Below the pieces are notes generated by a model. That model made no database searches. It was not told the origin of the DNA and saw only the letters and a program-made list of their open reading frames with translations. The translations under genes and the position numbers were made by a program. 64,000 bases of DNA from Limosilactobacillus sp. WILCCON 0051 (GTDB taxonomy: Bacteria; Bacillota; Bacilli; Lactobacillales; Lactobacillaceae): positions 310,001-374,000 of the forward strand of contig NZ_CP154878.1 of the NCBI RefSeq assembly GCF_039955095.1, read 5' to 3'. Of this stretch, positions 3,208-51,707 are shown piece after piece. Positions within the stretch are counted from its first letter, which is position 1. Each line of letters starts with the position of its first letter.

Positions 3208-3302
3208 CCGTAAGGTCATGGGGCAAGGTTGTGCCTACGAATCGTGTCAGGTCCGGAAGGAAGCAGCACTAAGTTCGCTACAGCTTGTGCCCCATGTTTT
3301 TT
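3208..3302 (+). ncRNA. ffs: Signal recognition particle RNA (small bacterial type)
   Basis: RNA scaffold of the SRP, which binds Ffh for co-translational membrane targeting. The domain IV signature GTCAGGTCCGGAAGGAAGCA is present at 3245-3264. The outer stem pairs CATGGGGCAAG (from 3217) with CTTGTGCCCCATG (to 3295), with a T run right after that can terminate transcription. A -10-like TAAGAT at 3194-3199 fits a start near 3206. The length, about 95 nt, suits the short 4.5S-like form of lactobacilli. Confidence 0.93.
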
Positions 3303-3308
3303 TATGAA

Positions 3309-50159: not shown

Positions 50160-50805
50160 GAGCCGGCCGACTTTAAAACAGCTGCTGCTGCCCGGAAAGC
50201 TGCCTGAGCCGCACATCTGTTTACAGTGCCGCAGTCGTCTCTTGTTGCGATCAAACGCGCATCCCTGTCCTGGTTGCGGACGAATGCTGGCGCCGAAAGA
50301 ATCGATCTGTTGGGAATGCCGGCAATGGCAAAGTCAATATGGCTGGCTGCTGAATAATCACAGTCTGTATGTCTATAACGATCTTATGCGGGAATTTATG
50401 AAAAAATTTAAGTTTCAAGGCGACTATGGCCTGCGCTTTGTTTTTCAAGAGACGTTTAATCATTTTCTGCAGGAGTTTGCATATGATGTCTTAGTGCCGA
50501 TTCCAATCTCGCCGCATACCTGGAAAACGCGCGGCTTTAATCAGACGACGGCACTGCTGACACTGCCTTATACTGAGGCCTTAAAAACGATTGCGGATAA
50601 TAAGCAAACACAATCAGCCAAAACACGGGAAGAACGTCTAAAAACACCACAGATTTTTGAATTAATGAATCCGCAGAAAATTGCTCATCAGCGGGTTTTG
50701 CTGGTTGATGACGTGTATACCACTGGTCGCACGCTGTATCATGCGGCCGTACTGTGCCGACAGGCCGGCTGTCAGACCGTTATCAGCGCGACGCTGGCCA
50801 GTTAA
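50125..50805 (+). CDS. comFC: ComF-family phosphoribosyltransferase-like protein ComFC
   Basis: Competence protein working with ComFA and DprA. The 226-residue product has N-terminal Cys pairs (CLLC, CLQC, CPGC, CWEC) for zinc and a C-terminal PRTase fold with the PRPP-loop motif VLLVDDVYTTGRTL. TTG 50125 lies 35 nt inside comFA and has AAGGGGGG about 9 nt upstream. Confidence 0.93.
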   Translation: MLKCLLCGATIESRPTLKQLLLPGKLPEPHICLQCRSRLLLRSNAHPCPGCGRMLAPKESICWECRQWQSQYGWLLNNHSLYVYNDLMREFMKKFKFQGDYGLRFVFQETFNHFLQEFAYDVLVPIPISPHTWKTRGFNQTTALLTLPYTEALKTIADNKQTQSAKTREERLKTPQIFELMNPQKIAHQRVLLVDDVYTTGRTLYHAAVLCRQAGCQTVISATLAS

Positions 50806-50810
50806 GATTC

Positions 50811-50824
50811 TGTAAACGATTACA
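50811..50824. promoter_or_regulatory. cre site (CcpA operator) before hpf
   Basis: TGTAAACGATTACA fits the cre consensus TGNAANCGNTNNCA at every fixed base. It sits 8 bp upstream of the hpf -35, a place where CcpA could either block or help RNA polymerase. Confidence 0.82.
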
Positions 50825-50832
50825 AATTGAAT

Positions 50833-50861
50833 TTGTCTATTAGAGCAAATTCATCTATAAT
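50833..50861 (+). promoter_or_regulatory. hpf promoter
   Basis: TTGTCT (50833-50838), 17-bp spacer, perfect TATAAT (50856-50861). An inverted repeat TGAATTTG (50828-50835) / CAAATTCA (50846-50853) spans the -35 and spacer and may be a second operator. Confidence 0.8.
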
Positions 50862-50867
50862 AGAAAT

Positions 50868-51164
50868 AGGATATGAGAAGAGTGGTCCTTCTGATATCAA
50901 TCAGAACAAGCTTTTTGCTTGGACTGGAAGGAGATGAATATCTGTTGGCAAATCTGGCGAACATTGCGTAATAGCAGATAAATGGCGCAAGCAACCAAGC
51001 CATTTTGAAATAGCTGCGGCAGAGGCTATCGCCGTAGACAGCTGCTTGAGGCAAGAGCAGTCGTCTTAGGAGTCATTGACAGGCAGAATCACTCGTCAGT
51101 GGTAAACGCAGTGGACGCGAGTGAATCGCGTTAAGCGTCAGCATTTGGATAACAGAGAAGTGCA
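50868..51164 (+). ncRNA. Long structured 5' leader of hpf mRNA (candidate cis-acting RNA)
   Basis: About 297 nt between the predicted start and hpf are rich in complementary segments. Two hairpins, TTCTGAT/ATCAGAA (50889-50906) and CAAGC/GCTTG (50907-50921), are closed by GTC/GAC into a tight three-way junction. Alternative pairs exist: TCCTTC (50886) with GAAGGA (50927); TTGCG/CGCAA against AAATGGC/GCCATTT; ATAGC/GCTAT against AGCTG-CGGC/GCCG-CAGCT; TCACTCG/CGAGTGA against CGCGA/TCGCG. No terminator-like U run is present. I recognise no known riboswitch, T-box or tmRNA. Function is inferred. Confidence 0.55.
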
Positions 51165-51707
51165 ATGCTAAAATTCAATATTCGTGGTGAAAACGTCGAA
51201 GTTACCGAATCGATTCGCGACTATGTCATCAAGCGGATCAGCAAACTGGAAAAGTTCTTCGAAGATAACGTTGAGGCAAATGCGCACGTTAATCTGAAGG
51301 TCTACCCTAACAAGACCTTCAAAGTTGAAGTAACGATTCCGCTCCCATACTTAACGCTGCGGGCGGAAGAAACTTCCAGCGACATGTACGGCAGCATTGA
51401 CTTGGTTACCGACAAGCTGGAACGTCAAATCCGTAAGTACAAGACCAAGGTTAACCGCAAGTCCCGTGAAAAGGGCTACAAGAACATGGACTTTGTACCT
51501 GATGTTGAAGACGAACCAGTCAGTGACGATTTAAAGATCGTACGGACCAAGCAAATCTCCTTGAAGCCAATGGACCCAGAAGAAGCTGTCTTACAAATGG
51601 ACATGCTGGGACATGACTTCTTTGTCTTTGAAGACGCTGAAACCAATGGCACCAGCGTTGTATACCGTCGTAAGGATGGTCGCTACGGTCTGATTGAAAT
51701 CAACTAG
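51165..51707 (+). CDS. hpf: Ribosome hibernation promoting factor, long form
   Basis: Binds the 30S decoding centre and dimerises 70S ribosomes into inactive 100S particles in resting cells. The 180-residue product has the S30AE domain (about 1-100, MLKFNIRGENVEVTESIRDYV) and the C-terminal dimerisation domain (about 120-178, VRTKQISLKPMDPEEAVLQM). ATG 51165 has only a weak SD (AGAGAAG), in keeping with control by its long leader. A cre site suggests a link to carbon supply. Confidence 0.95.
   Translation: MLKFNIRGENVEVTESIRDYVIKRISKLEKFFEDNVEANAHVNLKVYPNKTFKVEVTIPLPYLTLRAEETSSDMYGSIDLVTDKLERQIRKYKTKVNRKSREKGYKNMDFVPDVEDEPVSDDLKIVRTKQISLKPMDPEEAVLQMDMLGHDFFVFEDAETNGTSVVYRRKDGRYGLIEIN

Follow-up and report, generated by a model that had tools for sequence, protein, structure and literature searches.

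A folded RNA insert separates hpf from its Shine-Dalgarno sequence in Limosilactobacillus mucosae and a sister species and may rejoin the two as a split ribosome-binding site

The window analyzed here, a 64,000-nucleotide stretch of the Limosilactobacillus sp. WILCCON 0051 genome, contains a gene for a long hibernation promoting factor (hpf; 51165..51707, + strand) with Pfam Ribosomal_S30AE and Ribosom_S30AE_C domains, which is preceded by a 297-nt leader on the same strand (50868-51164). The gene order is a helicase-domain gene, a phosphoribosyltransferase-domain gene, the leader, hpf, and secA, and we take the first two genes to be comFA and comFC, respectively. The source is L. mucosae or something very close, as the window is 96.7% identical over 3.4 kb to the L. 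mucosae DSM 13345 locus (L084) and encodes an identical HPF protein. The sister species used throughout is represented by the locus of Lactobacillus sp. MRS-253-APC-2B (L085), which differs from window positions 51165-51704 in 25 codons, all of them synonymous, such that its HPF protein is likewise identical. A sigma-70-like promoter is predicted by pattern scan at 50833..50861 (TTGTCT-17-TATAAT, + strand) and its -10 box is also found upstream of the leader in the printed relatives. The promoter scan did not rise above chance (2 such sites vs. 2.5 in shuffled sequences), and a transcription start near the 5' end of the leader is predicted only. The first-pass annotation of this DNA had described the interval as a structured leader with neither a terminator nor a match to a known riboswitch, and this description holds. 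The full leader has a folding energy of -102.1 kcal/mol (z -3.98; 0/200 shuffles as good) and the sister leader reaches a z of -5.60, while the site scan found no + strand terminator-like site within the leader and the region 50780-51230 had no Rfam match at E up to 10. At gathering thresholds, the sole Rfam 15 match in the window is the bacterial small SRP RNA at 3210-3306, and searches of 19 relatives at E up to 10 returned sub-threshold matches only, none of which lies on the hpf leader where positions were checked.

Alignment with relatives indicates that the leader is composed of two parts, an ancestral block (50868-50933) and a structured insert (50934-51155). That most of the leader is an insertion could not have been recognized in the first-pass annotation. 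The ancestral block (+ strand) has matches in 45/50 genomes of the genus and is identical to the sister at 66/66 positions. With the exception of the window's own genome and two others, all of the DNA search matches in these 50 genomes end by window position 50940. The block begins with a 5' hairpin (50870..50898, + strand), a 10-bp helix with arms at 50870-50880 and 50888-50898, which has a predicted probability of 0.93-0.97 in the full leader and 0.95-0.99 in a 73-nt block. Among 35 chosen leaders (A5), 5 of its 11 pairs were changed on both sides (shuffle mean 0.4; 0/500), while further pair types were not above shuffles (9 vs. 10.2). Next is hairpin 2 (CAAGC/GCTTG; 50907..50921, + strand; P 0.999), whose position is also occupied by a hairpin in most of the relatives' predicted folds, though not in L147 and L148. 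The block ends with the Shine-Dalgarno (SD) sequence GGAAGGAG (50926..50933, + strand), which pairs with the 16S tail at -12.2 kcal/mol and is hpf's own SD in relatives. When loci are aligned on the hpf start, 27/30 have GAAAGGAG as the hpf SD, followed by approximately nine bases such as AGAAGUACA and then the ATG. Across 53 distinct relatives, the SD is predicted to be largely unpaired (median 0.80), with the lowest values of 0.42-0.59 in L122, L123, L100, and L108. Single-sequence folds mostly yield the 5' hairpin and an open SD as well, although L093 and L100 differ, and lineages without the 5' hairpin sequence have other hairpins at the same place. Judging from these comparisons, hpf in the order usually has a short leader in which a 5' hairpin, in many cases followed by another hairpin, precedes an SD that adjoins the ATG. 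A short ORF beginning at ATG 50873 was also considered and rejected, as it is the nucleotide sequence itself that is kept and indels follow, by reading.

The apex of the 5' hairpin is formed by the motif GAGUGGUCC (50880..50888, + strand), a 7-nt AGUGGUC loop plus its closing G-C pair, which occurs only once in the window. We found the exact motif within 110 nt of the ATG in 33/94 distinct hpf leaders, for which ~0.04 occurrences are expected by base count. These leaders were gathered via the HPF protein alone and chosen for spread of genera, leaving out L229-L232 as known carriers or relatives. By family (f1 is Lactobacillaceae and f1-f9 are arbitrary labels), the motif was present in 10/13 leaders of f2, 11/13 of f3, 4/17 of f5, 2/11 of f7, and 6/13 of f9, and missing from f1 (0/13, all from genera other than the named set), f4 (0/5), f6 (0/1), and f8 (0/8). 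In the named Lactobacillaceae set, 66/80 loci carry it within 200 nt of the ATG; L084 and L085 carry it as well, but farther upstream and hence outside this count. Including Lactobacillaceae (f1), the exact motif is found in hpf leaders of six of the nine families sampled in the order. The loop is nevertheless dispensable, since 61/94 leaders do not have it, including every leader sampled in f4 (5) and f8 (8). Several Lactobacillaceae leaders (L094, L108, L138, L157, L159, and L160) are without GAGUGGUCC and yet have another 5' hairpin by sequence after the promoter, although the predicted best folds of L159 and L160 depart from it in part. Since these loop-less Lactobacillaceae keep another hairpin there, the leader may require a 5' hairpin whether or not the loop is present.

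A leader covariance model (R2) had matches in 34 of 295 genomes of the order, and 30 of the matched loci were fetched. Twenty-one of these lie directly before hpf, 20 with the exact GAGUGGUCC and one (L200) with a single change, while nine are elsewhere. Two of the matches away from hpf (L208 and L210, f9 g53, near 1501-1575) consist of an AGUGGUC-loop hairpin followed by a T run, a terminator-like element located before a TatD-like gene, as named by reading, and are probably coincidence. Across 100 exact-loop leaders in a pool of 173 distinct leaders, GAGUGGUCC sits on 37 distinct stems (A6), most of them self-complementary. It should be noted that this pool is biased by its inclusion of R2-picked loci, and 33/94 and 66/80 are the fairer measures of frequency. 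Within a leader's own stem, 4.97 of the six inner positions pair, compared to 3.00 when arms are swapped between species (sd 0.19; highest of 2000, 3.57), and the stem covariation score is 0.680 vs. 0.195 in shuffled versions and ≤0.291 in slid versions. We infer that a stem which varies freely while staying complementary, beneath a loop that does not change, marks an RNA recognition element read in trans through its loop; in a DNA operator, the arms should have been conserved as well. A pseudoknot between the loop and the SD was rejected, as by eye it is impossible in some leaders. The literature search, which covered few subscription journals, found no paper on this hpf leader motif, and the matches listed for the 9-mer were unrelated by title.

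Unlike the ancestral block, the second part of the leader has a very narrow distribution. In the window's genome, the sister species, and L. mucosae DSM 13345, GGAAGGAG and AGAAGUGCA-ATG are separated by approximately 222 bases (50934..51155, + strand; ends uncertain by a few bases). The insert is present in only three of 30 loci (L001, L002, and L003) and in only two of 80 named hpf loci (L084 and L085), with the SD adjoining the ATG in the other 78. As L084 and L002 are the same leader, and likewise L085 and L003, the insert is known from two species and three rows. Since the SD adjoins the ATG in other relatives, the insertion is derived and lineage-specific within the sample. A DNA search of 301 genomes of the family with E up to 1 gave hits in 179 of them, but beyond the three carriers all were short (best, 7.1e-4 over 28 nt), and five of these short-match loci (L034-L038) had no match to the insert model. 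That model (R1) likewise found only low-scoring matches beyond the carriers (G017 and G014, seven of 395 order genomes, and G861 in the search of 348 class genomes; 16-26 bits vs. 152-188 in carriers), although distant relatives may be missed because the genome searches used Infernal's stricter filters. Three candidate homologues were rejected: by reading, L167 is the beginning of an ftsZ-like gene and L198 is contained in long ORFs, while the L169 alignment looks coding. The insert occurs as one copy in its own genome (G000) with no plasmid or phage match, and of two viral-contig pattern scans one was empty and the insert model found nothing at the 22 places given by the other. A leader peptide translated from GGAAGGAG was rejected as well; ATG 50934 has no spacing to the SD, TTG 50945 is not shared, and the changes are not coding-like, by reading the alignment.

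The insert is predicted to form a multi-branched domain. Its closing helix P1 (50941..50947 with 51150..51156, + strand) has a mean pairing probability of 0.96 in the window and 0.98 in the sister, with one pair changed on both sides and one on a single side between the two species. Helix P2 (50962..50969 with 51106-51113, + strand) has mean probabilities of 0.99 and 1.0, is 100% paired, and has 3/8 pairs changed on both sides. Together with P1b and P5, these helices all have mean probabilities of ≥0.96 in both species. The core hairpins P3-P6 (50979..51102, + strand) are more variable in this respect, at 0.92 and 0.62 (window and sister, respectively) for P6, 0.44 and 0.56 for P3, and 0.14 and 0.08 for P4, which is tentative. 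Given the low P3 and P4 values, some helix competition inside the insert is possible; the first-pass annotation had mentioned at least three further pairs of competing helices without naming them. A candidate pseudoknot between 50971-50975 and 51025-51029 (+ strand) is also tentative, as its pairs never vary. In a plain MAFFT alignment of three rows, which amount to two independent sequences, 98.2% of cells were paired and 11/56 pairs were changed on both sides, a number matched by 0/500 shuffles, while slid controls had at most 2; further pair types were not above shuffles (247/500). Because the covariation structure had been drawn with both sequences in view, we added a fold-projection test. 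The window fold projected onto the sister kept 20/29 changed pairs (null 0.32; 1/2000 permutations as high) and the sister fold projected onto the window kept 18/30 (null 0.24; 0/2000 as high).

The insert is 133/222 identical between window and sister (64% of ungapped positions; ~36% differ), which is above the four-fold sites of comFC (30/75) and below those of secA (123/181) and hpf (59/71), as well as the hpf-secA intergenic region (174/207). Unpaired positions of the junctions and core are identical at 34/45. Thus, the insert is less conserved than the intergenic region and the hpf and secA four-fold sites and yet its pairing is kept, so that selection shows on pairing rather than on overall sequence. 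This comparison shows pairing maintained through compensatory change while the sequence drifts. The first-pass annotation had called for compensatory base changes among relatives, and these do exist, but in helices other than the ones it named.

The flanks of the insert behave differently. While comFC four-fold sites have drifted to 30/75, the SD block is identical at 66/66 positions and the spacer AGAAGTGCA before the ATG (51156..51164, + strand), which includes a weak proximal SD, at 9/9. The weakness of this proximal SD had been suggested previously and is borne out by its pairing energy with the anti-SD, which lies between -2.9 and -3.6 kcal/mol and compares with -12.2 for GGAAGGAG. The only strong SD of L. 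mucosae hpf is therefore GGAAGGAG, which is located 231 nt before the start codon. P1 closes seven bases after this SD and eight bases before the ATG, and neither flank differs between the two species. By looping out the insert, P1 would set the old SD near the AUG, with an effective gap of ~11-15 nt (7 + 8 unpaired nt, or 5 + 6 with an extra stacked U-A pair) compared to 9 in relatives, and the SD and AUG halves may still act as one split ribosome-binding site. The best overall explanation, to which we assign a probability of about 0.5, is a shared hairpin-loop leader that tunes hpf through its loop, combined with a looped-out insert that joins the SD to the AUG. Against a split site, it may be held that 15 nt would be a long effective spacing and that the predicted unpaired probability of the SD bases in the full-length window fold is just 0.02-0.84.

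A precedent for such an arrangement exists in phage T4. According to the available portion of PMC3014915, structure between the SD and AUG cuts the spacing from 22 to 5 nt in gene 38 and from 27 to 11 nt in gene 25. The hpf leader is similar in that the SD is too distant, an intervening RNA structure is thought to join it to the start, and the arrangement is lineage-specific; it differs in that the T4 intervals of 22 and 27 nt hold small, mutation-tested structures (PMC3014915, same portion), whereas the hpf interval is 231 nt and holds a predicted multi-branched domain in a bacterial chromosomal gene. Viewed as a T4-type case, the hpf SD lies beyond the normal distance from the AUG, the ancestral SD is adjacent to the start in 27/30 loci, and the intervening structure is predicted, from folding and covariation, to shorten the distance (P1 mean probability, 0.96 and 0.98). 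The insert also recalls the raiA motif RNA (ModT, RF03072), which the accessible parts of PMC11706538 and PMC11751092 describe as ~210 nt with a complex fold closed by a P1 and often located between comFC and raiA (hpf), a common location for raiA RNA according to the former. The insert has no sequence-structure match to that RNA and lies inside the hpf ribosome-binding site rather than forming a separate gene, as raiA RNA does in those accounts (PMC11706538, PMC11751092). Its position between the phosphoribosyltransferase-domain gene and hpf fits RF03072, but position alone confers no membership, and membership was rejected since 50780-51230 had no match at E up to 10. Under stricter filters and a cut-off of E up to 1, RF03072 was found in 0/151 genomes of the family, against a weak control (B. 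subtilis only, below cut-off). As far as the parts of PMC4956104 at hand describe it, the lrtA leader of Synechocystis is likewise the 5' leader of an HPF-family gene under post-transcriptional control, although from another phylum. The raiA-hairpin motif, per the excerpt of PMC8388888 available, is a catalogued hairpin from Streptomyces linked to raiA by name; the hpf 5' hairpin has no Rfam match.

The first-pass annotation had proposed a different explanation, in which TCCTTC (50886-50891) pairs with GAAGGA (50927-50932) to hide the SD and excludes a three-way junction closed by GTC/GAC. The complementary segments are indeed present, GAAGGA lying inside GGAAGGAG, and so are the GTC/GAC triplets and the CAAGC/GCTTG hairpin. 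However, the SD-hiding pairing is not favored (P 0.005-0.010) and neither is the first hairpin of the junction (P ≤0.0034). In the 67-nt block, the best fold is -22.1 kcal/mol, compared to -12.6 for the junction in its closed form and -11.0 when the SD-hiding pairing is combined with hairpin 2. Both energy and probability thus prefer the two-hairpin fold over a pair of mutually exclusive helices. The proposed pairing is also not conserved beyond the Limosi-, Pauci-, and Levilactobacillus group, outside of which the invariant loop has unrelated stems, so that the UCCUUC strand itself is not conserved. We consider this switch very improbable. The 7-bp palindrome behind the junction (TTCTGAT/ATCAGAA) depends on bases that were found in the L. 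mucosae group alone. These are extra bases between the two leader hairpins (50899-50906), which create the palindrome and are the source of the junction. Limosilactobacillus leaders with CAGAA, unlike those of Levilactobacillus, can form a shorter palindrome of 5 bp, and the predicted best fold of one of them, L093, uses it.

The remaining alternatives concern the insert itself. It could be a regulated domain, riboswitch-like or protein-binding, whose P1 joins the SD and AUG when folded and which shuts hpf off when remodelled. The multi-branched fold, its conserved unpaired stretches, and the possible pseudoknot would suit such a role, but P1 is predicted to be almost always formed, Rfam offers no match, no alternative fold of comparable energy is shown, and no ligand is known, all of which makes this reading unlikely. 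To a similar degree, we doubt that the insert is a stable trans-acting RNA processed from the hpf transcript in the manner of raiA/ModT, leaving hpf to be weakly translated from the proximal AGAGAAG. In size, complexity, and place before hpf it does resemble raiA RNA as portrayed in the portion of PMC11706538 available; yet it does not match raiA RNA, neither a promoter of its own nor a + strand terminator was found in the leader, and the kept P1 and SD block would be left unexplained. Somewhat less probable is that the insert stems from a mobile element now in decay, or was inserted neutrally, and simply lowers hpf translation. P1 could be read as imperfect terminal inverted repeats and the presence of the insert is lineage-specific, but a single genomic copy, the lack of plasmid or phage matches, and pairing kept through changes on both sides all speak otherwise. 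Least probable is a self-splicing or self-cleaving RNA, the exact removal of which would, by reading, yield the SD-AUG spacing of the relatives; no Rfam intron or ribozyme matched at E up to 10, and group I introns need a U at the upstream junction, where the insert has none.

Returning to the preferred reading of a shared hairpin-loop leader with a looped-out insert, the 5' loop would tune hpf translation or mRNA life via a protein or the 3' tail of 16S rRNA. In a post hoc comparison, we noted that GAGUGGUCC can pair at nine positions with GGAUCACCUC, which we take to be the 16S rRNA tail, leaving one base bulged and including one G-U (-10.3 kcal/mol), at a site located at and just before the anti-SD. 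An equally good pairing was obtained by 33/3000 shuffled and 30/5000 random 9-mers. Such a pairing would fit a gene that sets ribosome state and is suggestive, no proof. A more elaborate scheme, which we regard as quite unlikely, has an aptamer-like domain inside the ribosome-binding site joining the distant SD to the AUG, downstream of an order-wide hairpin whose GAGUGGUCC pairs with the 16S 3' tail by the anti-SD and thereby senses ribosomes with a free tail.

In the literature found, as far as the available portion of PMC3014915 goes, the only documented cases of a distant SD joined to its start involve small structures, all in T4-like phages. The hpf insert is a natural test of the SD-start codon distance that can be tolerated when RNA folding joins the two, and a folded RNA at this location suggests a new control of the hibernation protein. 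A fixed loop found in six families on changing stems suggests that the hpf leader has a specific reader, for which the loop may serve as bait. The leader may bear on what times hibernation-factor production in these bacteria.
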